Source: Streptomyces avicenniae
GTDB lineage: Bacteria > Actinomycetota > Actinomycetes > Streptomycetales > Streptomycetaceae
Direction: 5' to 3'
DNA length: 64,000 bases
Assembly (NCBI RefSeq): GCF_000719135.1
Contig: NZ_JOEK01000008.1
Coordinates: 124,001-188,000, forward strand
The position numbers and the translations under genes were made by a program. Numbering within the stretch: position 1 is the stretch's first letter; each line of letters starts with the position of its first letter. Below the pieces are notes generated by a model that worked only from the letters and a program-made list of their open reading frames with translations, was not told where the DNA came from and did not search any database. Shown here piece by piece: positions 17,635 through 31,716 of the stretch.

Positions 17635-18324
17635 TCACACGCTCAGCGCCTCCCTGACCGCGCGCTCCGCCCCCTCGCCCCGGCTGCCCGAGGAGGTGAC
17701 CCGGCCCGCCTCCAGCACGTAGTACCGCTCGGCGGCGCGCAGCGCGAACGCGACGTGCTGCTCGACCAGCAGCACCGAGAGACCCGACGCGCCGAGGCCG
17801 AGGACCGTCTCCTGGATCTCCGCGACGACGGACGGCTGGATGCCCTCGGTCGGCTCGTCGAGCAGCAGCAGCCGCGGCCGGGTGATCAGGGCGCGGGCGA
17901 TGGCGAGTTGCTGGCGCTGGCCGCCGGAGAGCAGCCCGGCGCGGCGGGCGGTGACGGCGCGCAGCGCGGGGAAGCGGTCCAGCGCCTCGTCCACGGCGGC
18001 GCGCGCGTCGCGCCGCCCGTCGGCGACGAGCCGCAGGTTCTCCAGCGCGGTGAGCTGCGGGAAGCTCTGCTGCCCCTGCGGCACGTACGCGAGGCCGCGC
18101 CGTACCCGCCGGTGCGCGGGCAGCCGCGTGATGTCCTCGCCCTGGAACAGGACGGTGCCCGCGCGGGGCCGCAGCAGGCCGAGGACGGCGCGCAGCAGCG
18201 TGGACTTGCCCGCGCCGTTGTGCCCGAGGACGGCCGCGACGCCGTCGCCCGGCACGGCGAGCGACACGTCGTGCAGGACGGTCGTGCGGCCGTATCCGGC
18301 GGTCAGGCCGGTGATCTCCAGCAT
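17635..18324 (-). CDS. urtE: Urea-type ABC transporter ATPase UrtE
   Basis: A 229-residue ABC ATPase of the LivF/UrtE class. Walker A is GHNGAGKST, signature LSGGQRQQ, Walker B LLLLDEPTEGIQPSV and the switch histidine is in VEQHVAFA. The phrase EPTEGIQPSVV is diagnostic for UrtE rather than LivF. Start ATG overlaps the urtD stop by 1 nt (TGATG). It is the last gene of the five-gene operon transcribed leftwards and energises the UrtBC channel together with UrtD. Confidence 0.93.
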   Translation of the reverse strand: MLEITGLTAGYGRTTVLHDVSLAVPGDGVAAVLGHNGAGKSTLLRAVLGLLRPRAGTVLFQGEDITRLPAHRRVRRGLAYVPQGQQSFPQLTALENLRLVADGRRDARAAVDEALDRFPALRAVTARRAGLLSGGQRQQLAIARALITRPRLLLLDEPTEGIQPSVVAEIQETVLGLGASGLSVLLVEQHVAFALRAAERYYVLEAGRVTSSGSRGEGAERAVREALSV

Positions 18325-19121
18325 CAGTCCTCTCCTCCCGCGCTTCCCCCGGCGGGTGCCGCGACGGGCTCGCCGGGGCTGTGGCCGAGATAGACCTCCT
18401 GGACGCGTGGGTCGGCCTGCACGTCGGCCACCGACCCCTCGCTGAGCACACGGCCCGCGTGCAGCACGGTGACGCTGCTGGCGAAGGTGCGCATGAAGTC
18501 CATGTCGTGCTCGATGACGACGACCGTGCGGTCCTCGGCGATGCGGCGCAACAGGCCTCCGGTCTCGGCCCGTTCGTCGTGACTCATGCCCGCGACCGGC
18601 TCGTCGAGCAGCAGGAGCTGCACGTCCTGGACGAGCAGCATGCCGATCTCCAGCCACTGGCGGCGGCCGTGCGCGAGCGTCCCGGCGAGGTCGCCCCGCC
18701 GGTCGGTGAGCCCGATCGTCTCCAGCGCGCGGGCGACGGCGTCCGGCACGCCCTTGCGGCGCCGCAGCAACGCCGCGGGGGACCGTCCGGCGCCCGCCGC
18801 GATGTCGAGGTTCTGGAGGACCGTGAGGTTCTCGAAGACGGTCGCGGTCTGGAAGGTGCGGCCGATCCCGAGGCGGACGATGCGGTGCACGGGGCGCCCG
18901 AGCAGTTCGGTGCCGCCGAACTCGACGGAGCCGGTCGCGGGCACGAGTCCTGTGACGGCGTCCACGAGCGTGGTCTTGCCCGCGCCGTTGGGTCCGATGA
19001 GGAAGCGCAGGTCGCCGGGGCCGACGGTGAGGCTGACGCCGTCCACGGCGGTGAAACCGTCGAAGGAGACACGCAGGTCGGTGATCCGCAGGCCCTTCAG
19101 CGGCTCGTCGGGGGTCGTCAT
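18324..19121 (-). CDS. urtD: Urea-type ABC transporter ATPase UrtD
   Basis: A 265-residue ABC ATPase of the LivG/UrtD class: Walker A GPNGAGKTT, LAHGRRQWLEIGMLL in place of the usual LSGGQ signature (typical for UrtD), Walker B LLLLDEPVAGMSHDE and switch IEHDMDFMR. IGRTFQTATVFENLTV is also family-specific. The C-terminus ends in a Gly/Ala-rich tail. It overlaps urtC by 4 nt and urtE by 1 nt. Confidence 0.93.
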   Translation of the reverse strand: MTTPDEPLKGLRITDLRVSFDGFTAVDGVSLTVGPGDLRFLIGPNGAGKTTLVDAVTGLVPATGSVEFGGTELLGRPVHRIVRLGIGRTFQTATVFENLTVLQNLDIAAGAGRSPAALLRRRKGVPDAVARALETIGLTDRRGDLAGTLAHGRRQWLEIGMLLVQDVQLLLLDEPVAGMSHDERAETGGLLRRIAEDRTVVVIEHDMDFMRTFASSVTVLHAGRVLSEGSVADVQADPRVQEVYLGHSPGEPVAAPAGGSAGGED

Positions 19122-20179
19122 GCGGGCACCTCCGCCACGCGCGGGCCGCGGCGGGCGAGCAGCCGCCGCAGCGAGACGAGTCCGCCGGGCAGGAACGCCA
19201 CGACGGCGATGAACAGTCCGGCCTGGAAGTACGTCCAGGCCGCCGGGAACTCCTCGGACAGCGTGGTCTGCGCCCAGGCGACCGCGACGGCCCCGATGAC
19301 GGCGCCCGCGACGCTGGCCCGGCCGCCGATGGCGGCGCCGATGACGAACTGGATGGACGGCACGATCCCGATGAGCGCCGGGGAGATGATCCCCACGGCC
19401 GGGACGAACAGGGCGCCCGCGATGCCCGCGGTCCCGGCGGACAGGACGTAGGCCACCAGTTTGACGAGCGCGGGGTCGTAGCCGAGGAAGCGGACCCGTT
19501 CCTCCGAGTCCCGCACGGCGACGAGTAGTTCGCCGTAGCGACTGAGGAAGAGCTGCCGGACGCCGATCATGAGGAGCAGCAGGACGGCGGCGATGAGGAA
19601 GTAGACGGTGCGCCGGTTCACCGGGTCGAGGAGGGAGAAGCCGAAGAAGCCCTGGAAGTTGGTCAGCCCGTTGGTGCCGCCGGTCGTGGCCTGCTGGCCG
19701 ACGAGGAGGATGGCGAACGCGGCGGCCAGCGCCTGGCTGAGGATGGCGAAGTACGCGCCGCGCACCCGGCGGCGGAAGACCGCGTACCCGATGAGCGCGG
19801 CCAGCCCCATCGGCAGGACGAGGACGGCGGCGAGCGCCACGGCCGGGGAGCGGAACGGCTCCCACCACCAGGGGAGTTCGCTCGTGTCGCCGTACAGCAG
19901 CATGAAGTCGGGGAGCTGTCCCGCGCCCGCGTCGGTGAGCTTGAGGTGCATGGCCATGGCGTAGCCGCCGAGGCCGAAGAACAGGCCCTGGCCCAGGGTC
20001 AGCATGCCGCCGCGGCCCCAGGCGAGCGCGATGCCGACCGCGACGATCGCGAAGCACAGGTAGCGGGCGAGCTGCCCGAGCCTGAAGTCGCTGAGCAGCG
20101 CCGGGGCGACGGCGAACAGGAGGAGGGCGCCGAGCGCGTAACCGGCGGGCGCGCGCCAGCGGGTGAGTGTGGAGGTCAT
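19118..20179 (-). CDS. urtC: Urea-type ABC transporter permease UrtC
   Basis: A 353-residue inner-membrane permease of the LivM/UrtC class with about ten helices. Hallmarks are GRGGMLTLGQGLFFGLGGYAMAMHL near the N-terminus and VGIISPALIGIVPSIQFVIGAAIGGRAS near the C-terminus; RYGELLVAVRDSEERVRFLGYD is the conserved cytoplasmic loop that docks to the ATPase. It pairs with UrtB. Start ATG at 20179 overlaps the urtB stop. Confidence 0.93.
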   Translation of the reverse strand: MTSTLTRWRAPAGYALGALLLFAVAPALLSDFRLGQLARYLCFAIVAVGIALAWGRGGMLTLGQGLFFGLGGYAMAMHLKLTDAGAGQLPDFMLLYGDTSELPWWWEPFRSPAVALAAVLVLPMGLAALIGYAVFRRRVRGAYFAILSQALAAAFAILLVGQQATTGGTNGLTNFQGFFGFSLLDPVNRRTVYFLIAAVLLLLMIGVRQLFLSRYGELLVAVRDSEERVRFLGYDPALVKLVAYVLSAGTAGIAGALFVPAVGIISPALIGIVPSIQFVIGAAIGGRASVAGAVIGAVAVAWAQTTLSEEFPAAWTYFQAGLFIAVVAFLPGGLVSLRRLLARRGPRVAEVPA

Positions 20180-21072
20180 GCCAGGCTCCGGGTCCGCAGG
20201 GTGTGGATGCCTTGGGGGCGCCACTGGAGGAAGGCCACGATGGCGATCAGGACGGTGACGCGCGCGACGCTGACCGTCGTCGAGTACTCCATCACCGCCT
20301 GGAGCACGCCGAGCGCGAACGCGGCGACGACCGCGCCCCGCAGCCGTCCGATGCCGCCGACGACGATCACGAGGAACGCGTCGATGATGATGTTCGTGCC
20401 CATGGTGGGGCCGATCGGCCCCACCAGCGTCAGGGCGACACCGGCGAGGCCCGCGAGGCCGGAGCCGAGGAAGAACGTGAGCCGGTCCACGCGGCCGGTC
20501 GCGATGCCCGACGCCTCGGCGAGGTCGCGGTGCTGGACGACGGCCCGCATGCGGCGGCCCAGCGGGGTGCGGCGCAGCGTCAGCGTGAGGGCCGCGACGG
20601 CGGCGACGGCGAGGCCGAGGATGAACAGCCTGCTGTACGCCAGCGTCAGCGGGTCCTCGCCGCCGATCAGGGTGAGCCGCCCTGACAGCCAGTCGGGCGA
20701 GGAGGTGTGGACGTTCGGCGCGCCGAAGACGTCCCTGGCCAGCTGCTGGAGCATCAGGGAGACGCCCCACGTGACCAGCAGCGTGTCCAGCGGGCGGGCG
20801 TACAGGCGGCGGATGAGCAGCCATTCGAGGAGCGCCCCCATGGCCCCGGCGACCAGGAAGGCCACCGGGAGCGCGAGGAGCAGCGAGACGCCCGCGTCGG
20901 AGATCGGGCCCTGGAGCATGTAGACCGTGTAGGCGCCCGCCATGATGAACTCGCCGTGCGCCATGTTGATCACGCCCATCTGCCCGAAGGTCAGGGACAG
21001 GCCGAGGGCGATGAGCAGCAGGACGGCGCCGATGCTGATCCCGGTGAACGACTGGCTGAGGTAGACCGTCAT
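20176..21072 (-). CDS. urtB: Urea-type ABC transporter permease UrtB
   Basis: A 298-residue permease of the LivH/UrtB class. It begins directly with membrane helices (GISIGAVLLLIALGLSLTFGQMGVINMAHGEFIMAGAY), and carries RRTPLGRRMRAVVQHRDLAEASGI, the conserved coupling loop, and IIIDAFLVIVVGGIGRLRGAVV near the end. Unlike many UrtB proteins it lacks the long periplasmic N-terminal extension. It follows urtA by 1 nt. Confidence 0.93.
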   Translation of the reverse strand: MTVYLSQSFTGISIGAVLLLIALGLSLTFGQMGVINMAHGEFIMAGAYTVYMLQGPISDAGVSLLLALPVAFLVAGAMGALLEWLLIRRLYARPLDTLLVTWGVSLMLQQLARDVFGAPNVHTSSPDWLSGRLTLIGGEDPLTLAYSRLFILGLAVAAVAALTLTLRRTPLGRRMRAVVQHRDLAEASGIATGRVDRLTFFLGSGLAGLAGVALTLVGPIGPTMGTNIIIDAFLVIVVGGIGRLRGAVVAAFALGVLQAVMEYSTTVSVARVTVLIAIVAFLQWRPQGIHTLRTRSLA

Positions 21073-21073
21073 G

Positions 21074-22333
21074 TCAGGACAGGCCCTCGGCCCAGGGGTA
21101 GGTCTCCAGGTAGGGGTCGGGGCGTATCGGCTCGCCCGAGGACCAGACCTCGGTGATCGCGCCGTCAGCGCCGATGCGGCCGATGCGGCTGGTCTTGAAC
21201 AGGTGCTGGGTGTCGCCGTCCACGGTGACGGTGCCCTCGGGGGCGTCGAAGGTGATGCCGTCGGCGGCGGCGCGTACGTCCTCCACCTCGAAGGAACCGG
21301 CCTCCTCGACCATCGCGGCCCACAGGTAGACCGACGTGTAGGCGGCCTCCATGGGGTCGGAGGTCGGGCGGTCCTCGCCGTAGCGGTCCTGGAACGCCTG
21401 GACGAAGCTCTCGTTGGCCGCGCCCTCGGTCGTCTGGTAGTAGTTCCAGGCGGTGAGCTGGCCCGCCAGGTACTCGGCGCCGATGCCCGCGACCTCCTCC
21501 TCGGCGATGGAGACGGACAGGACGGGCATCGTCTCGGCGGTCAGGCCGGTCGCGGCGTACTCGCGGAAGAAGGAGACGTTGCTGTCGCCGTTCAGGGTGT
21601 TGAAGACGGCGTCGGCGCCCGAGTCCTCGACCTTGGTGGCGATCGTCGCGAACTCGGTGGAGCCGAGCGGCGCGTAGTCCTCGCCGACGATCTCGATGCC
21701 GTGCTCCTCGGCGTACGCGGTGATGATGCGGTTCGCGGTGCGCGGGAAGACGTAGTCGCTGCCGACGAGGTAGAGCGACTCGACGTCCTCCTCCTCGCGC
21801 AGGTAGTCGAGGGCCGGGATGATCTGCTGGTTGGTCGTCGCGCCGGTGTAGAAGATGTTGGGCGACTGCTCCAGGCCCTCGTACTGGACCGGGTAGAAGA
21901 GGAGCGAGCCGTTCTGCTCGAACACCGGCAGCACGGCCTTGCGGCTGGCCGACGTCCAGCAGCCGAAGACGGCGGCGACGCCGTCCTGCTGGATCAGCTT
22001 CTCCGACTTCTCGGCGAACGTCGGCCAGTCGGAGGCGCCGTCCTCGCTGATCGGCTCGATCTGCCTGCCGAGGACGCCGCCGTCCGCGTTGATCTCCTCG
22101 ATGGCGAGGAGCAGCGCGTCGCGGACGGTGACCTCGCTGATGGCCATCGTGCCGGAGAGGGAGTTGAGCAGACCGACCTTGATCGTGTCGCCCGACGTGT
22201 CCACCTCGGCGGCCTGGCTGCCGGAGGCCGGTTCCTCGCCGGTGCGGGCGCCGCAGGCGGCGAGGGACATCACGGTGAGCGCCGTCACGGCGGCGGCGAA
22301 CAGGCGGTGGCGCTGTCCACGGATTCTGGGCAT
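21074..22333 (-). CDS. urtA: Urea ABC transporter substrate-binding lipoprotein UrtA
   Basis: A 419-residue lipoprotein. Signal peptide [19 protein letters not shown] has the lipobox LAAC. The mature part is a type-I periplasmic fold of the UrtA family: [73 protein letters not shown], and [12 protein letters not shown]. These match urea/short-amide binders rather than branched-chain amino acid binders. ATG at 22333 follows GGAGG. First gene of the urt operon, about 120 nt from a GlnR-like box, consistent with nitrogen control. Confidence 0.93.
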
Positions 22334-22429
22334 GTCCGTCCTCCATGTCCCGCCCTGGGGCGGGGTAAGGGGAAGGTGACACCGGGCCGCGTCGCCCGGC
22401 CTGAACATGCCACAGCCTCAACAGACATG

Positions 22430-22457
22430 ATTTCTCCGGGATTTCTCAACAGTTAAC
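22430..22457 (-). promoter_or_regulatory. Candidate GlnR-type nitrogen-control box upstream of urtA
   Basis: Read on the minus strand the sequence is GTTAAC-N6-GAAAT-N6-GAAAT. The GlnR consensus in actinomycetes is gTnAC-N6-GaAAc repeated with 6-nt spacing, so the first half matches well and the following GAAAT repeat keeps the 11-nt period. Urea transporters are known GlnR targets. The end of the box is about 97 nt before the urtA start. Confidence 0.45.
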
Positions 22458-22497
22458 ACTTCCGCCCGGAAGGACATGCCGGTCCGTGGACGCCCCG

Positions 22498-23598
22498 TCA
22501 GCCCGGCCGGACGCTCCACGCGTCGAGGTCGGCCGTCACATGGAAGTCGAGACCGTCGGCCTCGGCGAGGTAGATGCGCTGCCGCACGTGCCGCCCGCTC
22601 AGGCGCAGTACGCCGCGCGCGCCCTCGTAACTCACGCGCTGGGCGGCCCGTTCGATGGCCGGGACGTGCCAGGAACCGGCCTGGCCGACGAGCGCGGCGA
22701 GCAGGAGCACCCCCTCGTAGCACGACTCCCCCAGGGTGCTCGGGGCGGGCGAGCCGGGGCCGAAGCGGGCGGCGTAGCGGCCGTGGAAGTCGAGCGTGTC
22801 GGCGGTGGCGAGCGAGCCGAAGAAGCCCGCCGTCGCGGTGAGGCCCCGGGTGGCGTCGGGGCCGCTGGCGAGCAGCATGTTCTCGTCCATCAGGGTGCTC
22901 AGGCGCAGCGCGCGCCGGTCGAGCCCGGCGGCGGCGTAGGCCCGGTTGAAGCGGACGGCGTCGCTGCCGACGAGCAGCATGAGGACGGCGTCGCTGTCGT
23001 GCCGCTCGATGCGCCGCAGTGCGGGGGTGAAGTCGTGTGTGCCCAGGGGGAGATACGTCGTGCCGCAGATCCGGCCGCCGCTCTCGCGGGCGTAGACGTG
23101 GGCGGCGCGGGCCGTGTGGCGCGGCCAGACGTAGTCGTTGCCGACGATGTACCAGCGGCGCACGCGGTGCTCGGCCGCCAACAGCCGCATGGCGGGGCGC
23201 AGTTGCCCGTCCGGGGTCTCGCTGGTGAGGTAGACGCCCGGCGTGGTCTCACCGCCCTCGTACAGCGCCGTATACACATAGGGCACACGGCCCGCGAGGC
23301 GCGGCGCGACCGCGCGGCGCACCGACGAGATGTGCCAGCCGGTGACGGCCCGCACGATGCCCGCGTCCACCAGCGCGGCGACCTCCTCGGCCACGCGCTG
23401 CGGCGGGGCGCCGCCGTCCACCGTGACCAGCCGCATCTCCCGGCCCAGCACGCCGCCCGCCGCGTTCACCTCGTCGGCGGCGAGCCGGGCGCACAGCTCG
23501 CAGGCCGGCCCGAAGATCCCGGCCGGGCCCTGGCGCGGCACGACCAGCGCGACGCCGAACGTGTCGGCGTCGGCGGCGAGCCACTGTCCGTCGGACAT
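22498..23598 (-). CDS. AmiC-like cytosolic amide-binding sensor
   Basis: A 366-residue protein with the type-I periplasmic binding fold but no signal peptide; it begins MSDGQWLAADADTFGVALVVPRQGPAGIFGPACELCARLAADEVN. It resembles AmiC/FmdD and UrtA in VTVDGGAPPQRVAEEVAALVD, YTALYEGGETTPGVYLTSETPDGQLRPAMRLL and YIVGNDYVWPRHTARAAHVYARESGG. AmiC of Pseudomonas is a cytosolic amide sensor acting on an antiterminator; here no AmiR-like gene is adjacent, but a divergent MarR gene is 53 nt away. It probably senses an amide or urea analogue for the urt operon downstream. The stop is 165 nt from the urtA start. Confidence 0.88.
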   Translation of the reverse strand: MSDGQWLAADADTFGVALVVPRQGPAGIFGPACELCARLAADEVNAAGGVLGREMRLVTVDGGAPPQRVAEEVAALVDAGIVRAVTGWHISSVRRAVAPRLAGRVPYVYTALYEGGETTPGVYLTSETPDGQLRPAMRLLAAEHRVRRWYIVGNDYVWPRHTARAAHVYARESGGRICGTTYLPLGTHDFTPALRRIERHDSDAVLMLLVGSDAVRFNRAYAAAGLDRRALRLSTLMDENMLLASGPDATRGLTATAGFFGSLATADTLDFHGRYAARFGPGSPAPSTLGESCYEGVLLLAALVGQAGSWHVPAIERAAQRVSYEGARGVLRLSGRHVRQRIYLAEADGLDFHVTADLDAWSVRPG

Positions 23599-23651
23599 CG
23601 GCCCATCATCCCGGGTTTGTACGATGGTTGACCTGTCGCCCGAGGAGTGAG

Positions 23652-24116
23652 ATGGCCGTACCGAGCGAGGAACGACCCGTGGACCTGGCCGCCGCGCTGA
23701 CCCGGGCCGAGCGGCTGTCCGAGCGGCGGCTGCGCGCCGCCCTGGACGGCACCGGCTGCTCGACCGACGCGTGGCGCGTGCTGTCACTGCTCGCGGACGG
23801 GGACGGGCACGGCATGACGGCGATCGCCGCGTGCGTACTGCTGCCGCCGCCGACGCTGACCCGGCTGATGGACCAACTGGTGGACGACGGCCTGGTGCAC
23901 CGGCGCGTGGACCCGATGGACCGGCGTCGCATCCTGGCGTACCTCACGCCACGCGGCCTCGACCTGTGGGGCGCGCTCGACCGGCGGGTGGCGGAGAGCT
24001 GGGCCGGGCTGCCGGGGGGCGGGGACGACGAACTGCTCGCCGCGCTGCTGAACCGGCTCGTGGCGCGTCTCGAGGACTCGGCTCCGGCGGGTGGCCGCGC
24101 TGTGCCGCTGCGGTGA
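23652..24116 (+). CDS. MarR-family transcriptional regulator
   Basis: A 154-residue winged-helix regulator: LDGTGCSTDAWRVLSLLADGDGHGMTAIAACVLLPPPTLTRLMDQLVDDGLVHRRVDPMDRRRILAYLTPRG, with the recognition helix PPPTLTRLMDQLV and the wing DPMDRRRILAYLT. ATG at 23652 follows GAGGAG. It is divergent from the AmiC-like sensor gene over a 53-nt gap, so it likely controls that gene and perhaps the urt operon. Confidence 0.92.
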   Translation: MAVPSEERPVDLAAALTRAERLSERRLRAALDGTGCSTDAWRVLSLLADGDGHGMTAIAACVLLPPPTLTRLMDQLVDDGLVHRRVDPMDRRRILAYLTPRGLDLWGALDRRVAESWAGLPGGGDDELLAALLNRLVARLEDSAPAGGRAVPLR

Positions 24117-24176
24117 CGGTTACGATGTGCGCCGCACAGATGATCTGACGTCACACGAGCCCGGGGGGGCGTGAGG

Positions 24177-24635
24177 ATGACCGACTTCGACGCGGAATGG
24201 GCCGGGATGCAGGCCGCCGCGCGTGAGCAGGTTGCGCAGCAGCAGGCGGCGGGCGGGGCGCGTACACGGCTCAACACGACCGGCGGCGGGGGCGGTTCCG
24301 GAGGCGCGGGCGTCGATCACGATGAGGAGGGGCTGCAGGACGTCGAGACCCACGCGATCGAGCTGGGCGACACCCTGTCCACGCACGGGCAGATGGCGGA
24401 GAACTCGACCCACGTGGCCGGAGTCCTCCTGCGCACGCCGGGGTTGGAGACGGGTCCGGCGCTGATCGAGCTGGTGGAACGCTGGGGGACCCAGTCCGAG
24501 GCGCTGCGCGACGCGTGCCTGACGATCAGCGGCCACATGCGGGAGACCATCCAGCGGATGGCGGACGTGGAACTCGACATCATCGGCGGCCTGAACGCCG
24601 CCGGCATGTCGCCCCACCGTCCGCAGGCGCGGTGA
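24177..24635 (+). CDS. WXG100-like helical small protein
   Basis: A 152-residue protein without signal peptide. It starts MTDFDAEWAGMQAAAREQ and has a glycine-rich stretch (TGGGGGSGGAG) before a helical bundle (HAIELGDTLSTHGQMAENST, ALIELVERWGTQSEALRDACLTISGHM). The arrangement matches a streptomycete family of small helical proteins resembling ESX/type VII substrates, always paired with a large partner gene as here (23 nt downstream). ATG at 24177 is chosen over GTG at 24171; a G-run lies 8 nt upstream. Function in the cell is not established. Confidence 0.8.
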   Translation: MTDFDAEWAGMQAAAREQVAQQQAAGGARTRLNTTGGGGGSGGAGVDHDEEGLQDVETHAIELGDTLSTHGQMAENSTHVAGVLLRTPGLETGPALIELVERWGTQSEALRDACLTISGHMRETIQRMADVELDIIGGLNAAGMSPHRPQAR

Positions 24636-24657
24636 GCGCGGACGGGGGGCGCCACGG

Positions 24658-26964
24658 ATGGCACGCGCGGGACTGACCGTCGAGACACTGCTCAACCTGC
24701 AGTTGGGCCAGGTGACGGGGGCTGTGACCGATTGGGAGTCGCAGGTCGCCAAGCTGGAGGAACTCGGCGAATGCGCCGCGAACATGGTCGGTGCGGCGCG
24801 GGCGGCGCGGTGGAGGGGCGAGAACGAGCGGGCGTCCGTCGCGTACATCGGGGAGACGTCCGGCCAGCTCGACGCGGCGCTCACCCAGGCCCGTACGATC
24901 GCCGCGCTCCTGCGGGACGGGCACGGCCGCCTCACGTCCTGCCGGGACGCGCTGCTCACCGTCATGGAGTCGGACGCGCCCGCCGCGCGGGTGCACGTGA
25001 GCACCTCGGGGGAGGTGACGGCCGACTACGACGGCCTCGACGGCGAGGACAGGCGGGCCCGACAGGATGCCGTGATGGAGATCGCCGCCCGTATCCAGGA
25101 CGTCCTGCGGCGGACCGTGGAGGAGGACGCGCTGATCGCCCAGGCCGTGCGCGAGGCGATGGGCACCGACCCGTACCGCTTCAGCCCGGTCGCCTACGGC
25201 TCGATCGACGAGGTGAACACGGCGATCGAGGACGCGCGGACGGTGCTGGACCTCGCCGACCGGGGGCAGGAGCTGACGGACGCGGAACTGGCCGAACTGT
25301 CGCGCCTGCTCGCCGACCACGCCGACGACCCCGCCTTCGCCGAACGCATCGCGACCGGCCTCGGCCCCGAGGGCACGGTGACACTCTGGACGGACATCAC
25401 GGGCTCCCGTTCCGTCGAAAGGGGCTCCGAGCTGTGGGACACGATGGCCACGCTCCAGACGAATCTGGGCAACACGCTGGGCCTGGCGACGCAGTCGGAC
25501 TCCGATGCCATGGACGCTTGGGAGGAGTCCATGATCGCCCTGGGCCCCGAGCGTGTGGCAGGGGACGTGTACGAGCAGAGTGCCCACAACTTCCTGGTGA
25601 TGAGCGCGCTCATGAACTCGGGGACGTACGACTCCGACTTCCTCCTCGCCTACGGTGACGCGCTGCTGGACTTCGAGCAGGCGGGCGACGGTACGGCCTA
25701 CGACGTCTGGGACGCATACCCCGAGCCGGTGTTCAACTTTCCGGTCACCGAGGCGGACGCCGGGGATCTCGGCCGCGATCCGATGACCGGATTCCTGACC
25801 GCGCTCGGCAACAACCCCGACGCATCGACCCGGTTCTTCTCGCCACCGAGCGACTTCGTCCCGACGGACGCCCTGACCGAAGGCGCCGTCGATGCCGACA
25901 CCGAGGGCGCGCAGGTGAACGAACGGCTGCATTACCTCACGACGGAGAGGGAATGGTGGCTCACCTCGGAAGACACGCTCATCGACATGAACGGTCTGAC
26001 CGCGCACCCGGCCCTGGGTGAAGCTCTCCTCGCCGCCACGACGGGCCATCCGGCATCCGTGTACGCGAGCGGTGATCCCGAGGCGCTCGCCTCGCTGCCC
26101 GACAACCGGTCGCAGGAGACCGCGCAGATTACGTCCCAGGTGATGCATCTCTACGGCACGTTGGAACCCGGCCGTCTGGCGGAGCAACCAGCCCTCGCAC
26201 CCGCCCTGGGGCAGATGACCGCCGCGTACATCAACGACGTGAACTACTGGCTCTCGGACCCTGCCGAACCCAATCGTGAGGTGAACGGCATCCTGTTCGA
26301 GGCTCCGTACGGTGAACGACTGTCGAACGGCTTCTTCGGCACCACCCGCTTCCTGAGTGAGGTCGCGCAAGTACCTGAATCTCACGAGATCGTGTCGCAG
26401 GCCGAATACCTTTACACGCTCGGCGTCATGAGCTCGCTGGACCTCGACAGCCTTGATGCGTTCGGGCAGGGAGTCACTGCGGTGGAGACGGCCACTACGG
26501 TCCGCGGACTACTGGATCAGTCCCTTGTGGATCGTCTTGCTGCTGAGCATGGAGCCGATTCGGAGGCGGCGCAACAAGGGCTGGCCGGAACTGCCGGGTG
26601 GACGAAGGCGGGGCTGGGAGCACTGGTCGGCGCTGGTACGGCGGCCTTGGCCATCAGCCTGACGGGTGGGGCAGCCGCAGTGGCCGTGCCACTGGCGGTA
26701 GGTGCCACCGTGCCTCTCATCAGTGAGTTCATGAACCAGGAAGTCGATGGGGCGCACCACTTCGAGGCTGACTCCCGTGCAAGACAACTGGATGAGCAGC
26801 AGTTCTTCGGAGCCGGAACGCAAGAAACCTCGAATTTGGTGAACCTTTTGACAGATGAAGGTGCCCAGCGAGGTCTCGCCATGGAGGACATGACCTTGCG
26901 AACCGGTGAGGCAGCAGACGCATACGTACGTGGCCAGGCGTTCGCGACAAACCATGGCAATTAG
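24658..26964 (+). CDS. Large WXG-like/DUF6571-type protein (768 aa)
   Basis: A 768-residue protein with no signal peptide. Residues about 5-110 are a helical hairpin region like WXG100 proteins (VTDWESQVAKLEELGECAANMVGAARAARWRGENERASVAYIG). The middle (about 160-560) is an alpha-helical block with TDAELAELSRLLADHADDPAFAERIATGLGPEGTVTLWTDI, typical of DUF6571-like streptomycete proteins. Residues about 645-685 are a glycine/alanine hydrophobic stretch (LGALVGAGTAALAISLTGGAAAVAVPLAVGATVPLI) that could span or insert into a membrane. It may be a type VII-exported effector or a structural partner of the small protein upstream; no catalytic motif is visible. The 3' part has clearly lower GC than the 5' part. 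Confidence 0.85.
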   Translation: MARAGLTVETLLNLQLGQVTGAVTDWESQVAKLEELGECAANMVGAARAARWRGENERASVAYIGETSGQLDAALTQARTIAALLRDGHGRLTSCRDALLTVMESDAPAARVHVSTSGEVTADYDGLDGEDRRARQDAVMEIAARIQDVLRRTVEEDALIAQAVREAMGTDPYRFSPVAYGSIDEVNTAIEDARTVLDLADRGQELTDAELAELSRLLADHADDPAFAERIATGLGPEGTVTLWTDITGSRSVERGSELWDTMATLQTNLGNTLGLATQSDSDAMDAWEESMIALGPERVAGDVYEQSAHNFLVMSALMNSGTYDSDFLLAYGDALLDFEQAGDGTAYDVWDAYPEPVFNFPVTEADAGDLGRDPMTGFLTALGNNPDASTRFFSPPSDFVPTDALTEGAVDADTEGAQVNERLHYLTTEREWWLTSEDTLIDMNGLTAHPALGEALLAATTGHPASVYASGDPEALASLPDNRSQETAQITSQVMHLYGTLEPGRLAEQPALAPALGQMTAAYINDVNYWLSDPAEPNREVNGILFEAPYGERLSNGFFGTTRFLSEVAQVPESHEIVSQAEYLYTLGVMSSLDLDSLDAFGQGVTAVETATTVRGLLDQSLVDRLAAEHGADSEAAQQGLAGTAGWTKAGLGALVGAGTAALAISLTGGAAAVAVPLAVGATVPLISEFMNQEVDGAHHFEADSRARQLDEQQFFGAGTQETSNLVNLLTDEGAQRGLAMEDMTLRTGEAADAYVRGQAFATNHGN

Positions 26965-26973
26965 GAGATCTAC

Positions 26974-27618
26974 ATGAGTAGGACCTCTCAGTCCCTCGGC
27001 GCCGCGCTCGCGACAATCACTCTTCTCGGCGCGTGTTCCTCGTCCGAAGAACCGGAAGAGGGCCCGACTCCGTTGGAGCATCCACTTTCCGCCGAGGAGG
27101 TCTGTGGCGGCACGCTGGCTGCGTTCGGCGCCGAAGCCCTGGAATCGCTCAGCCATGGGGTCGAGTTCAGCGAGATGGTGAACGAACCGCGCGCGGAAGT
27201 GGGCGCATTCGCAGATGAGCTGCGCCGTCCACACGAAGGCACCTTCACGTTCTGCACGATCTACACCCCGGATTATGAAAGCTCGGGATTGGCGACGGTA
27301 CGGTTTTCGTGGAGCCCCACCTCTGCGCCCACCTCCTCGCCCTCTCCGGTTTCCGGTGCGACCGCGAACTTCGCAGCAGGAAGAAGCGCTTGGACCGGCG
27401 AATCCTCAGCCTTCATGCTCTTCAGCTGCCCCGTTGCTGCCGATGAGGAACGCAGCGAACTTCTCAGCAGGTTGGATTTCATTCAGCCGGGTGCGTCGTA
27501 CGAGCCTGACCTCATGATGGAGGTCCTCAACGCGATGACCGGTGCCGTCGCGGAAGAGCTGGGGTGCGCGGAAGAGGCGGGACTGCCGAGCGGTGCACCC
27601 CAGCGGATCGAGGGATGA
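26974..27618 (+). CDS. Paralogous lipoprotein 1 of 4
   Basis: A 214-residue lipoprotein: signal peptide GAALATITLLGACSSSEE with lipobox LLGAC. The mature part shares with its three neighbours the order EVCGGTL, FCTIYTP, FSCP and EELGCAEEAGLPSGAPQRI; the four conserved Cys suggest two disulfides outside the cell. It starts 10 nt after the WXG-like large gene with AGGAG before the ATG, so it belongs to that operon. Its stop overlaps the next start (ATGA). Function unknown; immunity or surface partner for the upstream protein is a reasonable guess. Confidence 0.85.
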   Translation: MSRTSQSLGAALATITLLGACSSSEEPEEGPTPLEHPLSAEEVCGGTLAAFGAEALESLSHGVEFSEMVNEPRAEVGAFADELRRPHEGTFTFCTIYTPDYESSGLATVRFSWSPTSAPTSSPSPVSGATANFAAGRSAWTGESSAFMLFSCPVAADEERSELLSRLDFIQPGASYEPDLMMEVLNAMTGAVAEELGCAEEAGLPSGAPQRIEG

Positions 27619-27728
27619 CCCCGCACGCACCGCGTTCCGTCGCGAGCGGCGGGTGGCGTCGTCTCGTTGTCGGCGTCGCCTCGTCGCTGTCCCTCCTGGC
27701 AACCGGATGCTCGTCCGGCGGCGAGGCG
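27544..27728 (+). repeat. Direct repeat copy 1 across a lipoprotein gene junction
   Basis: 185 nt that recur at 28233-28417 with about 8 mismatches and no gap. The repeat covers the 3' end of one lipoprotein gene and the signal-peptide region of the next. The 689-nt offset equals one gene, which marks a tandem duplication or gene conversion event. Confidence 0.9.
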
Positions 27729-28307
27729 CCGGAGGAACTGACGGAGCGAGGTACACCTGCTCCACGACTTGAGCATCCGGTTCCCGCCGTCGAAGTCTGC
27801 GATGGGGCACTGTCCGATCAGGGTGCCGCAGCCTTGGAAAGCTTGAGTGGAGAGACTCAGTTCACCGACATGGAAGGCGAAGTGCCTCCAGAGATGACGG
27901 GCTTCACCGAGGAACTACGGCCGACCGGTGCCAACGCGGTCACTTTCTGCACGATCCGCACCCCCAGCGACATGGCCTTCCCGTTCGCGGTAGTACGTTT
28001 CTTGTGGATACCGACCTCCGAGGAACCCTCTGCGCCGATTCCCGATGCCACCGCCATCTACGCGGCGGGCTCCGAGGCATGGATCGTCGGGGACTCCGGG
28101 TTCATCGGATTTCCCTGCTCTGCTGGCGAGGTGGAGGAGTACGACCAGCTCGTCGGCTACCTGACCATCCGCCGGTCGGGCGGGATCACGGAGCCCGACC
28201 TCGTGATGGAAGTTCTCAATGCCATGGCGAGCGCCGTCGCGGAAGAGCTGGGGTGCGCGGAAGAGGCGGAACTGCCGAGCGGCGCACCCCAGCGGATCGA
28301 GGGATGA
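27615..28307 (+). CDS. Paralogous lipoprotein 2 of 4
   Basis: A 230-residue lipoprotein. Signal peptide RRLVVGVASSLSLLATGCSSGG with lipobox LATGC. Mature part carries EVCDGALSDQGAAALESLSGETQFTDM, FCTIRTPSDMAF, GFPCSAGE and EELGCAEEAELPSGAPQRI. ATG at 27615 overlaps the stop of copy 1 and its own stop overlaps the start of copy 3, so translation is coupled. Its ends are nearly identical in DNA to those of its neighbours, while the middle diverges. Confidence 0.86.
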   Translation: MTPHAPRSVASGGWRRLVVGVASSLSLLATGCSSGGEAPEELTERGTPAPRLEHPVPAVEVCDGALSDQGAAALESLSGETQFTDMEGEVPPEMTGFTEELRPTGANAVTFCTIRTPSDMAFPFAVVRFLWIPTSEEPSAPIPDATAIYAAGSEAWIVGDSGFIGFPCSAGEVEEYDQLVGYLTIRRSGGITEPDLVMEVLNAMASAVAEELGCAEEAELPSGAPQRIEG

Positions 28308-28417
28308 CCCCGCACGCACCGCGTTCCGTCGCGAGAGGCGGGTGGCGTCGTCTCGTTCTCGGCGTCACCACGTCGCTGTCCCTCCTGGCAACCGCCTGCT
28401 CGTCCGGCGGCGAGGCG
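28233..28417 (+). repeat. Direct repeat copy 2 across a lipoprotein gene junction
   Basis: Second copy of the 185-nt junction repeat (first at 27544-27728). Eight mismatches, two of them at the residue just before the lipid-anchored Cys, where copy 2 has Ala (LATAC) instead of Gly (LATGC). Confidence 0.9.
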
Positions 28418-28942
28418 ACCGAGGAACCGGCCGAGGAGTACGCGCGGGCGTCCGAACTCTGCGACGGAACCATCTCCCCGGAAGCCGGAGCAGCTCTCGA
28501 AGAGATCATGGGCACAAGCCAGTTCAGCGAGCCCGATCAATCCGACCTCGCCCGCACCCTTCGCGAGGCCGCCACAGCAGAGACGCAGTACACCGATTTC
28601 TGCGACCTCTACACACCGGGTGGCGAATCCTCTGATACACATCTGCAGCTCGGCATGAGCGACACTCCGATTACCAATACGCAGGACGACCCGCTCAGAG
28701 TCTTCTACGACGCCGGGCAACTCGCTTACGCAGCCCAGGCATCAGGAATTATCTCTTTCCCTTGCTCGAACGCTTCAGGCGGCTATGTGGTCGTCAATCT
28801 GTACACGTACGGGGACACCATGGCGACACGTGACGATCAGATACTCGTCGCCAACTCCGTCGCGCGGGCCGTGGCCGGGGAGTTGGGGTGTCTGGAGGAG
28901 GCGGGGCTGCCCGAGGGGATGCCGCGGCGGGTCGGCGGGTGA
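28304..28942 (+). CDS. Paralogous lipoprotein 3 of 4
   Basis: A 212-residue lipoprotein with signal peptide RRLVLGVTTSLSLLATACSSGG (lipobox LATAC), nearly the same as copy 2. The mature part diverges: ELCDGTISPEAGAALEEIMGTSQFSEPDQ, FCDLYTPGGESSD, ISFPCSN and GELGCLEEAGLPEGMPRRV. The body is closer to copy 4 than to copy 2, so the gene looks mosaic, with a 5' end shared with copy 2 and a body like copy 4. Start overlaps the stop of copy 2. GC of the middle part is low for the window. Confidence 0.86.
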   Translation: MTPHAPRSVARGGWRRLVLGVTTSLSLLATACSSGGEATEEPAEEYARASELCDGTISPEAGAALEEIMGTSQFSEPDQSDLARTLREAATAETQYTDFCDLYTPGGESSDTHLQLGMSDTPITNTQDDPLRVFYDAGQLAYAAQASGIISFPCSNASGGYVVVNLYTYGDTMATRDDQILVANSVARAVAGELGCLEEAGLPEGMPRRVGG

Positions 28943-29032
28943 GGGGGGTGGGGCGCGATCTTCCGTCCGTGGGGGGTGGCCGCTAGGCTCCACGGTCAGG
29001 CTCCCCCGCCCCGTGGAGACTGAGGAGACGTC

Positions 29033-29728
29033 ATGCCGAGCGTCATCGCCCGACCCGCGCGGATCGTCGCCTCGTTGGTCGTCCCCCTGCTCGTCGTCGC
29101 CGCGAGCGCCTGCTCGTCGGGCTCGGACTCCGGGGCGGACGCGGAAGCCGAGGAGACGCGGGAGAGCGTGGTCGCACCGTCGGAGACGGGGACGCCGCGT
29201 CCCCCGGGGGATCCGGTCTCGGCCTCCGAGATCTGTGACGGGACGCTCTCGCCCGAGGCGGGCGAGGCACTGCAACTGCTCACCGGGGCGACGGAGTTCA
29301 ACGAACCGGCCGACGCCCCCGCCGCCGATCTGGCCGCCTACGCGGAGCGCCTCCCCACCTCCGAGGCGTACTACGACGACTTCTGCCACATCGGCGTGCC
29401 GGGCGGCGAGGAGCCGTTCGCCCGGATCGCCTTCGGCCTGCGGGAGACCGCGAACGCGCCGGAGGTGCCAGGCCCCATGGAGATCCGCTACACGGCCGGT
29501 GACTACGCGTACGCCACCAACGCCTCGGCGATCGTCGTCTTCCCCTGCGCGACGGCGGGCCCCGGCTGGGTCGAGGCGAACCTGTACACGAGCGAGGACT
29601 CCCCGGAGACCCGCGACGCGCAGATCACCCTCGCCACGTCCCTTTCCCGCGCCCTCGCCGACCACCTGGGCTGCCTGGACGACGCCGGGCTGCCCGAGGG
29701 TGTGCCCGAGCGAAGCCCCGAGAGCTGA
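29033..29728 (+). CDS. Paralogous lipoprotein 4 of 4
   Basis: A 231-residue lipoprotein: RIVASLVVPLLVVAASACSSGS (lipobox AASAC), then an acidic/Thr-Pro linker and the shared core EICDGTLSPEAGEALQLLTGATEFNEP, FCHIGVPGGEEP, VVFPCATA and DHLGCLDDAGLPEGVPERS. Unlike the other copies it is 90 nt from its neighbour, has its own GAGGAG site and has the high GC usual for the genome. It may be the ancestral copy of the array (inference). Confidence 0.87.
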   Translation: MPSVIARPARIVASLVVPLLVVAASACSSGSDSGADAEAEETRESVVAPSETGTPRPPGDPVSASEICDGTLSPEAGEALQLLTGATEFNEPADAPAADLAAYAERLPTSEAYYDDFCHIGVPGGEEPFARIAFGLRETANAPEVPGPMEIRYTAGDYAYATNASAIVVFPCATAGPGWVEANLYTSEDSPETRDAQITLATSLSRALADHLGCLDDAGLPEGVPERSPES

Positions 29729-29994
29729 CCTCCCCCGGCGCCGACCGTCCCGGCGCCGCGCGCAGCGCCCTCCTCCCCACCCGTCCGGACGCCACGACTC
29801 CCCCGTCCGCGGCGCGGCCCGCCGTCACCCGGAGCTGCACAGTCCCTACGCTGTGCGATATCCGGAGGGAGGCGCGGGACGGAAGAGGCGGAAACTTGTT
29901 CGCATGCCTGGAGTGATCCGGGGTAGCCGCTGCGCATTAGTTCGTTTCCTTGTACAGCTATCCGGCTGACCTGGACAGAGAGAGAGGCACCAGC

Positions 29995-31716
29995 GTGCCA
30001 GGCGACAAGCAGATCCGGGGCCCCGCGCGACGGTCGTGGCGCCCGTCGTTCGCGGACGGGAAGACCGACCCGGTGGTCTTCGGGGTGACGGCGGCGGTCA
30101 CGCTGGGATTCGTCCTGTGGGGCGCCGTCGGCACGGACTCCCTGGCGGACGCGTCCTCCAGCGCGCTGAACAGCGTGATCCACAACGCCGGGTGGGGCTT
30201 CGTCCTCGCCGCCTCCGCGTTCGTCGTGTTCGCCCTGTGGCTGGCGATCAGCCGGTACGGCCGAATCACGCTCGGCGCCGAGGGCGAGAAGCCGGAGTTC
30301 AGGACGGTGTCCTGGGTCGCGATGATGTTCAGCGCGGGCATGGGCATCGGCCTGATGTTCTACGGCGTGAACGAGCCGCTGAGCCACTTCACCACTCCCC
30401 CGCCCGGCACGTCGCCGCACGACGCGGGCGAGCGCATGTCCACGGCCATGGCGACGACGCTGTTCCACTGGACGCTCCACCCCTGGGCGATCTACGCCGT
30501 GGTCGGCATGGCGATCGCCTACAGCACCTACCGCCGCAACCGGCGGCAGACCATAAGCGCGGTCTTCACCCCGCTGATCGGCGAGCGGCACGCGAACGGC
30601 GCGGTCGGCCGCGTCATCGACATCCTGGCGATCTTCGCGACCCTCTTCGGCTCGGCGGCCTCGCTGGGCCTGGGCGCCCTCCAGATCGGCAGCGGCATCG
30701 AGGAGGTCGGCTGGCTGGACAACGTCGGCACGGGGCTGCTCGTCCTGCTGATCGCCGCGCTGACGACGGCGTTCATCGCCTCGGCGGTGTCCGGCGTCGC
30801 CAAGGGCATCCAGTGGCTGTCGAACATCAACATGGTGCTGGCCGGGGTGCTGGCCGTGTTCGTGTTCGTCGTCGGGCCGACCGTGCTGATGCTCGACCTG
30901 CTGCCGACGTCGATCGGCTCGTTCATCGACAGCCTGCCGGGGATGGCCGCGCGCAGCGAGGCCAGTGGGGGCGAGGACGTCGCCGGGTGGTTGTCGGGCT
31001 GGACGGTCTTCTACTGGGCGTGGTGGATCTCCTGGACGCCGTTCGTGGGCCTGTTCATCGCGCGGATCAGCCGGGGCCGGACGATCCGGCAGTTCGTCGG
31101 CGGCGTGATCCTGGTGCCGAGCGCGGTCAGCCTCGTCTGGTTCGTGATCTTCGGCGGGACGGCGATGCGGCTGGAGGAGCACGGCGCGGACCTGACCAGT
31201 CAGGCGACGCCGGAGGGGCAGCTGTTCGCGGTGCTGCGCGAGTACCCGATCGCGGGGGTGACGTCGGTCCTGGTGATGATCCTGGTCGGCATCTTCTTCG
31301 TCTCGGGCGCGGACGCGGCCTCGATCGTCATGGGCACGCTGTCGCAGCGCGGGACGCTGGAGCCGAGCCGGATGGTCGTCGTGTTCTGGGGTGTCCTGAC
31401 CGGCGCGGTGGGCGCGGTGATGCTGCTGGTCGGCGGCGGGGAGTCCTCGGCGCTCGACGGGTTGCAGAACCTGACGATCCTGGCGGCCGTGCCGTTCGCG
31501 CTGGTGATGATCGGACTGTGTGTCGCGCTGATGCGTGACCTGCGGCGCGATCCGCTGATCGTGCGCGGGCAGCGTGGCGAGGAGGCCGTCGAGATGGCGG
31601 TCATCGCCGGGAACGACAAGTACGACGGGGACTTCGAGATCCGGATCGGTCCCGGCAACGGCGAGGGACCGGTCGCGGCGGCCGAGCCGCGGCCCGCACG
31701 GCCCGCGGGCGGCTGA
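29995..31716 (+). CDS. BCCT-family betaine/choline/carnitine transporter
   Basis: A 573-residue, 12-TM secondary transporter. Family landmarks: MMFSAGMGIGLMFYGVNEPLSHF (glycine-rich TM3 that lines the Na+/substrate path), LFHWTLHPWAIYAVVGMAIAY, and YWAWWISWTPFVGLFIARISRGRTIR (TM8 Trp cage and the following loop). It should import quaternary amines such as glycine betaine, choline or carnitine with Na+ or H+. GTG at 29995 follows AGAGAGG at 29980-29988; an in-frame TTG at 29950 has no good ribosome site. It converges on a SolA-like oxidase that could use N-methylated amines. Confidence 0.92.
   Translation: MPGDKQIRGPARRSWRPSFADGKTDPVVFGVTAAVTLGFVLWGAVGTDSLADASSSALNSVIHNAGWGFVLAASAFVVFALWLAISRYGRITLGAEGEKPEFRTVSWVAMMFSAGMGIGLMFYGVNEPLSHFTTPPPGTSPHDAGERMSTAMATTLFHWTLHPWAIYAVVGMAIAYSTYRRNRRQTISAVFTPLIGERHANGAVGRVIDILAIFATLFGSAASLGLGALQIGSGIEEVGWLDNVGTGLLVLLIAALTTAFIASAVSGVAKGIQWLSNINMVLAGVLAVFVFVVGPTVLMLDLLPTSIGSFIDSLPGMAARSEASGGEDVAGWLSGWTVFYWAWWISWTPFVGLFIARISRGRTIRQFVGGVILVPSAVSLVWFVIFGGTAMRLEEHGADLTSQATPEGQLFAVLREYPIAGVTSVLVMILVGIFFVSGADAASIVMGTLSQRGTLEPSRMVVVFWGVLTGAVGAVMLLVGGGESSALDGLQNLTILAAVPFALVMIGLCVALMRDLRRDPLIVRGQRGEEAVEMAVIAGNDKYDGDFEIRIGPGNGEGPVAAAEPRPARPAGG

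Follow-up and report, generated by a model that had tools for sequence, protein, structure and literature searches.

A candidate type VII effector-immunity module with tandem, recombining lipoprotein genes in Streptomyces

Effectors of type VII secretion systems (T7SS) have been described together with partner and immunity genes in several bacteria. In Staphylococcus aureus, the T7SS effector of the TslA-TlaA1-TlaA2-TilA set comes with small helical partner proteins and with a lipoprotein that confers extracellular immunity (PMC10730906). The tipC genes, which occur in tandem and encode a probable lipoprotein signal, present conserved blocks near both gene ends and a variable middle, and recombine through these blocks; the esaG genes of S. 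aureus possess three conserved recombining blocks (PMC9484751). Two other T7SS toxins, EsxX (PMC12744356) and TelE (PMC10434224), carry glycine zippers. Moreover, exported alarmone synthetases have been reported, one of which, from Amycolatopsis, has an LXG domain, and some of which, in Streptomyces, are encoded beside T7SS and putative immunity genes, so that antibacterial T7SS effectors have already been proposed in this phylum (PMC12691689). Here, we analyzed a 64,000-nt stretch of the Streptomyces avicenniae genome (the window, i.e., positions 124001-188000 of contig C8 in a 6.48-Mb genome) and we describe in it a train of six same-direction genes (24177-29728), named W, B and L1 to L4. 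These genes are likely to form a module in which a polymorphic antibacterial effector is exported by type VII secretion and immunity is provided by lipoproteins located on the outer side of the membrane. To our knowledge, little is known of the cargo and purpose of the Streptomyces ESX machine; the module supplies candidate cargo, partner and self-protection genes together, and the question of whether actinobacterial T7SS kill rival bacteria becomes directly testable.

The locus shares several traits with the systems cited above. Like TslA/TilA, it combines a small helical partner with a lipoprotein present in a variable number of tandem homologues (PMC10730906). It differs from TslA, a phospholipase with a C-terminal targeting domain, in that B has an N-terminal WxG motif and no lipase domain was seen in it; it also differs from TilA, which belongs to DUF576, a family absent among those matched by 44 L proteins at E-values up to 1. 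S. aureus belongs to another phylum and carries another T7SS class than Streptomyces. Likewise, TelC-TipC in streptococci and EsaD-EsaG have tandem non-identical copies with conserved blocks, a likeness of gene layout; both are firmicute systems. The four L proteins of the window have no convincing family in Pfam or NCBIfam and the 44 L proteins none in Pfam. As in EsxX and TelE, an N-terminal T7SS targeting domain would precede a hydrophobic, Gly-rich C-terminal segment. These toxins differ by their LXG N-terminus and their immunity proteins (ExiAB and ExiCD for the former, TipE for the latter), and the zipper of B is modestly supported. A literature search covering titles and abstract openings found no description of a W-B-L module. 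What appears to be new in Streptomyces is a candidate T7SS effector-immunity module whose partner, effector and lipoprotein families are distinct from those of the systems above. If this is true, DUF6571, the family of B, and a Pfam-less lipoprotein family join the T7SS effector-immunity repertoire, which hints that immunity lipoproteins encoded by tandem recombining copies may have evolved independently of those found in firmicutes.

All six genes lie on the + strand. W (24177-24635) encodes a small helical protein of 152 aa, starting at the ATG in 24177, with a GTG also in frame at 24171. After a gap of 22 nt comes B (24658-26964; 768 aa), the candidate type VII-exported effector, which matches DUF6571 (PF20211) with 37.6 bits for a cut-off of 27 and whose nearest relatives, by named proteins or records, are found in Streptomyces (S. 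hainanensis, S. radicis, S. marincola, and others). The lipoprotein genes L1 (26974-27618), L2 (27615-28307) and L3 (28304-28942) start 9 nt after B and overlap by a 4-nt stop/start (ATGA) at both junctions, and L4 (29033-29728) follows L3 after 90 nt. Their lipobox cysteine codons are located at 27034-27036, 27708-27710, 28397-28399 and 29111-29113, respectively. A sequence-only reading of this DNA had described a small WXG-like protein, a large partner and four lipoproteins, and its coordinates and gaps are borne out.

Our reading draws on the gene order, its conservation, a partial linkage to T7SS genes, the co-variation of the proteins, the repeat blocks, the base composition, and the retention of L where B has been lost. 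From these observations, we infer that W would pair with the WxG N-terminus of B, and that both would be exported by an EccC machine encoded elsewhere in the genome. The C-terminal part of B would be a variable antibacterial tip, which possibly acts on membranes. Held by their lipid anchor on the outside of the producer membrane, the L lipoproteins would bind this tip and neutralize it, shielding producer and kin. Tandem non-identical L copies, reshuffled through conserved 5' and 3' blocks, would broaden the protection, and low-GC blocks formed by the B C-terminus and L would be exchanged between modules.

The association of the three genes is conserved well beyond the window. We collected the neighborhoods of 40 L matches, three loci of the same genome and the neighborhoods of 40 PF20211 matches (out of 95, the best 40 that lay outside the loci already collected), built W, B and L profiles iteratively, and counted the B genes encoding 600 aa or more. 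W lies directly upstream of 85 of the 91 B genes obtained in this way, and an L relative downstream of 76. When the two sources are taken separately, W precedes 46 and L follows 44 of the 47 B genes in the L-gathered and own-genome set; among the 44 B genes gathered by B, 39 are preceded by W and 32 are followed by L. B is present in 37 of 42 L-gathered neighborhoods (the window and locus L012 counted); the others are L012, L045, L049, L057 and L061, and a W-B-L-L set lies farther along the same contig as L049 (L107). Counted as frames, short pieces included, the L copies number one after 67 B genes, two after 7, four after 2 (the window and L062) and none after 15. The sequence-only reading had set as a check that the lipoprotein homologues should follow the W-B pair and vary in copy number; they do follow it, and loci with L hold one to four copies. 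The lipobox frame pattern detects only 56 of the 76 L genes known by profile downstream of B, and it is also encountered behind 12 of 223 genes other than B.

We then come to the T7SS genes. EccC was searched in 54 of the 199 Streptomyces genomes, i.e., those bearing L, and was found above cut-off in all 54, that of the window included. In 14 of them, at least one L or B place has an EccC gene (768-816 bits, cut-off 346.55) less than 12 kb away. Such proximity was observed for 10 of the 63 L places and for 9 of the 45 B places, with about 0.5% expected per place. The count compared 63 of 73 L rows (10 same-contig neighbors being left out), 45 B entries (PF20211 matches in L-bearing genomes, after joining split ones) and 92 EccC entries above cut-off. 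Some EccC-module links may be concealed by the draft state of the contigs. In five loci (L046, L048, L049, L056 and L064), a gene of about 1322 aa, forming a single cluster, adjoins the module or its L, and in L048, L049 and L056 this gene is EccC (EccCa 949-960 bits, cut-off 509; EccCb 890-907 bits, cut-off 346.55). In L046, L048 and L064, the W, B and L genes neighbor both EccC and a WXG100-cluster gene. Genes matching EccD and a mycosin-type subtilase (L056) or WXG100 (L056 and L064) are present as well, and in L065 a subtilase gene is immediately upstream of W. The genetic link between the module and the T7SS is direct in some genomes. The genome of the window has two EccC genes above cut-off, on other contigs (C16 and C12) than the module. 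About 2 kb from the EccC gene of C16 lies another pair made of a small and a WXG-like protein (L102:4089-6099; 160 and 499 aa), for which no Pfam match was obtained at E-values up to 0.001.

W and B had been called a WXG-like pair by the sequence-only reading. For the large protein this stands. Indeed, W52 and G54 are invariant across 29 aligned B proteins, within a WXG100-like N-terminal domain (residues 1-115; 24658-25002), and this N-terminus aligns WxG on WxG with a profile of 29 Streptomyces WXG100 sequences (hhalign probability 68%, a moderate value). The small protein of the window matches no T7SS family in Pfam, and no convincing family in Pfam or NCBIfam. Only the second half of W aligns with the WXG100 profile (hhalign probability 52%). 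When the rows of the W alignment are searched at E-values up to 1, EspC (PF10824) is matched by 5 of 24 (best 5.5e-6) and WXG100 (PF06013) by 2 of 24, one of the 24 rows (L140:3242-3380) being the start of a B gene. Judged by its relatives, W may be an EspC/WXG100-like protein. Homology between W and the B N-terminus was considered and rejected (hhalign probability 0.3%). The LXG domain (PF04740) is absent from the families matched by 29 B proteins at E-values up to 0.1. Elsewhere in the genome of the window (contigs C1, C2, C3, C18 and C19), six weak WXG100 matches, covering model positions 5-76 in frames of 321-1558 aa, possibly represent another large WXG protein family.

PF20211 is matched in 76 of 199 Streptomyces genomes, that of the window included. 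At the class level, the B profile matched 40 of 296 genomes and 6 of 114 genera, and among the matches listed the near-full-length ones are all in Streptomyces. When genome contigs were scanned with ten B proteins close to that of the window, only 5 loci were obtained. B relatives are also carried on plasmids, 17 Streptomyces plasmid records holding one over 26-82% of its length; on a plasmid of S. caniferus, B is preceded by a gene bearing the annotation 'type VII secretion target' and followed by one for a hypothetical protein. Pfam assigns no function to DUF6571, our literature search found no paper naming it, and a PDB sequence search with B returned nothing useful (best E-value 0.5). Two more B paralogues exist in the genome of the window (L013:6388-8517 and L014:7191-9296), each with W upstream; the lipoprotein downstream is recognized by profile in L014 and by the lipobox pattern only in L013. 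At L064:398-2779, a B relative looks disrupted, its second half being in another frame (piece at 469-1308), and the downstream lipoprotein frame is cut by the locus end; its second half aligned as noise, and it was dropped from the B alignment and kept in the module counts.

The C-terminal region of B (residues 561-768; 26338-26961) evolves fast, has a G+C content at third codon positions (GC3) of 0.66 and is the candidate effector tip. It contains an Ala/Gly-rich hydrophobic segment (residues 663-681; 26644-26700), which is the most hydrophobic 19-mer of B. Among the 70 complete modules retained for the co-variation analysis, in which only the first L of each module was used, the most hydrophobic stretch of B sits in the last quarter in 64. 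That B acts on a membrane target is a tentative proposal, to which we give rather less than even weight; such a target would suit an outer-face lipoprotein immunity, as in TslA/TilA.

The L proteins form one family, as the sequence-only reading had proposed. This is because the junction repeats are 91% identical and the profile relatives reach 54 of 199 genomes, far beyond chance. The repeat, of 245 nt with a spacing of 689, covers the L1 3' end and the L2 5' end in its first copy (27502-27746), and the L2 3' end and the L3 5' end in the second (28191-28435). The L1-L4 profile has relatives in at least 54 of the 199 Streptomyces genomes, own genome included, a lower bound since only 15 candidates were scored per genome. 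The motifs that were said to be common to the four proteins (E-x-C-D/G-G, F-C, P-C/F-S-C and G-C-x-E/D-E/D-A-G-L-P) are present as described, save that L2 has A-E-L-P in place of A-G-L-P and that F-S-C is found in L1 and F-P-C elsewhere. L1 to L4 all carry the lipobox cysteine and four further cysteines. In an alignment of 44 members, these four mature cysteines are invariant, which suggests that they form two disulphides, and the lipobox cysteine is nearly so. With DUF3558, hhalign produced two local matches, one of 36 columns at a probability of 38% and one of 45 columns at 77%; one L relative bears this name in its source record, and Pfam gave no DUF3558 match in the 44 L proteins. A PDB sequence search with L found nothing useful, the best hit (E-value 0.023) covering the signal-peptide stretch only.

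The tandem copies share their ends and diverge in their middles. L1 is 51% identical to L2, 31% to L3 and 30% to L4. Compared by blocks of 30 codons, the identity between L2 and L3 is 96% in the first block and 88% in the second, falls to 36-50% over the five that follow, and is 60% in the final complete block. Between L1 and L2, it is 35% in the first block, 48-63% thereafter, and 87% in the final complete block. L3 could be described as an L2-like 5' end on an L4-like body. In S. radicis (L086), which has four L copies, copies 2-4 present 99-100% identity in the first block, 79-100% in the second and 93-98% in the last full one, most of the remaining blocks being at 62-76%. We do not argue for diversifying selection between the L copies, in the middles of which synonymous changes are near saturation and the proportion of nonsynonymous differences (pN) is not clearly above that of synonymous ones (pS); pN is slightly above pS in a few conserved blocks (e.g., 0.12 vs 0.07).

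Polymorphic toxins repeatedly exchange blocks made of their C-terminus and the immunity gene. The base composition of the module can be read in this light. In the window, the GC3 of B is 0.88-0.98 in its early part and sinks to 0.58-0.73; it is 0.72 in L1, 0.75 in L2 and 0.76 in L3, and rises to 0.935 in L4, like the first part of B and the downstream gene. Among the 70 modules, GC3 is below that of the first half of B in the B C-terminus of 59 and in the L of 65. Such low values fit a repeated exchange of C-terminus-plus-L blocks between modules. On balance, we lean slightly towards a picture in which Streptomyces would possess a genus-wide polymorphic antibacterial arsenal of the ESX type, with DUF6571 toxins and a new family of four-cysteine lipoproteins for immunity, and in which the window would be a recently re-armed locus. 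During such a re-arming, a new low-GC toxin tip and L1-L3 would have been inserted before the older resident immunity gene L4; that L4 is a displaced older immunity gene is suggested by its GC3 and its nearest relatives.

In two loci, B has been deleted and L retained. In L045:9390-10224, W is followed by only about 36 first residues of B, then by two open L genes. In L061:8890-9690, the first residues of W are fused to an L signal peptide, a second L comes next, and no B was found. The retention of L without B is expected of an immunity protein, and less so of an assembly partner. This bears on another explanation, in which B would be a non-toxic type VII-exported surface protein (involved in adhesion, envelope or development), L would tether or assemble it, and their co-variation would reflect a structural complex. 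The strict gene order and the single L of 67 of the 91 B genes agree with it, as does the link made between the Streptomyces EsxA/EsxB proteins and sporulation (in a title cited in PMC8401907). We nevertheless consider this explanation unlikely, because tandem L copies with shared ends and divergent middles, a low GC3 in both the C-terminus and L, and the persistence of L after B loss are not what one usually expects if L merely assembles B. We found no W or B in two further L loci, L012 and L057. The first (L012:7779-8456) holds an orphan L-family member in the genome of the window (contig 18), with neither W nor B in the 16-kb locus.

The co-variation analysis relates L to one half of B and W to the other. 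Across the 70 modules, the median pairwise identity is 0.365 for W, 0.279 for B and 0.166 for L, and along B it drops from 0.35 at residues 1-110 to 0.19 at residues 601-768. The divergence of W tracks that of B residues 1-96 (rho 0.88), fading further along B. On the contrary, the divergence of L correlates at 0.17-0.31 with the B windows starting before residue 433, and at 0.53-0.59 with those from 433 on. In partial correlations, L follows the C-terminal half of B given the N-terminal one (0.55, reached by 0 of 2000 permutations) and does not follow the N-terminal half given the C-terminal one (0.03), the reverse being observed for W (0.70 with the N-terminal half and 0.06 with the C-terminal one). 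Some pairs of modules are clearly swapped. L072 and L062 are 65-85% identical over B residues 1-384, then only 37, 31 and 17% in the three final windows, and their L proteins 18%; conversely, L083 and L074 are 28-44% identical over residues 1-384, then 53-66% over the last three windows, with 28% for L. Omitting the two most swapped modules leaves the L-C correlation unchanged. A conserved N-terminus, a variable C-terminus and a co-varying downstream candidate immunity gene constitute the layout of polymorphic toxins, and all three are found here.

These fast-evolving L ectodomains, which vary with the C-terminal half of B, would also fit a specificity between ligand and receptor, L being then a receptor or decoy of kin recognition or signaling and B an exported ligand with no toxic role. 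We hold this to be improbable. A lipoprotein has no cytoplasmic part for signaling, and we saw no gene family constantly accompanying the module, the most widespread neighbor cluster being present in 15 of 44 neighborhoods. The sequence-only reading had left the choice between an effector-immunity and a receptor array. The co-variation of L with the C-terminal half of B, the low GC3, the recombining tandem copies and the two B-less L loci lead us to favor the former, with toxicity, export and binding as its predicted components.

Several observations weigh against an exported effector neutralized by L. The L-C correlation (given the N-terminal half) drops to 0.44 with 44 modules and 0.30 with 26 once similar modules are removed, and the co-variation of neighboring regions can also come from linkage together with intragenic recombination. 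In a strong form of this argument, co-variation and swaps would be due to linkage and recombination along the operon only, L and B having no direct functional match. The fact that W tracks the adjacent end of B and L the adjacent half points that way, as does the weakening of the correlation from 0.55 to 0.30. On the other hand, the L correlation is nearly flat over residues 433-768 with no peak in the nearest window (0.585 at 481-576, 0.543 at 673-768), and the fact that the gene order persists between modules of such divergence speaks for a functional unit; in the 26-module set, in which no two B are more than 50% identical, still 0 of 2000 permutations reach the L-C value. We judge this strong form very improbable. 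Since linkage and recombination could yield the same pattern, we take the co-variation as support for a match between L and B and not as proof of contact. Other points concern the effector itself and its route. No toxin or enzymatic domain was recognized in the B of the window or in a set of 29 B proteins (E-values up to 0.1), in agreement with the sequence-only reading, which saw no toxin motif. The hydrophobic stretch of B attains a mean hydropathy of 1.6 in just 36 of 70 modules, and the glycine-zipper-like pattern is modestly enriched (64 of 70 modules vs 45.9 expected after shuffling). As for export, in 40 of the 54 genomes, that of the window among them, none of the L and B places compared has an EccC gene less than 12 kb away. 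The motif Y-x-x-x-D/E is the actinobacterial type VII export motif, carried by one partner close to its C-terminus. It is not enriched here, since the last 45 residues contain it in 6 of 70 W and in 6 of 70 B, for 11.7 and 17.5 expected by shuffling. Finally, the profile detects no L downstream of 15 of the 91 B genes. Among these, a lipobox frame lies just downstream in 3 (2 being cut by the locus end), and 2 more end at the locus edge.

The surroundings of the module in the window complete this description. A promoter and terminator scan gave 0 and 0, not above shuffled sequences, with a sigma-70 pattern that may not suit this organism. PADLOC gave no match for the six proteins, and a phage or defence origin was rejected on the ground that no such match was obtained in Pfam, NCBIfam or PADLOC. 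The upstream flank (18324-23787) resembles what we take, from its sequence, to be an ABC transporter operon of the branched-chain amino acid or urea type, and the downstream flank (29950-31716) presumably encodes a BCCT-type transporter.

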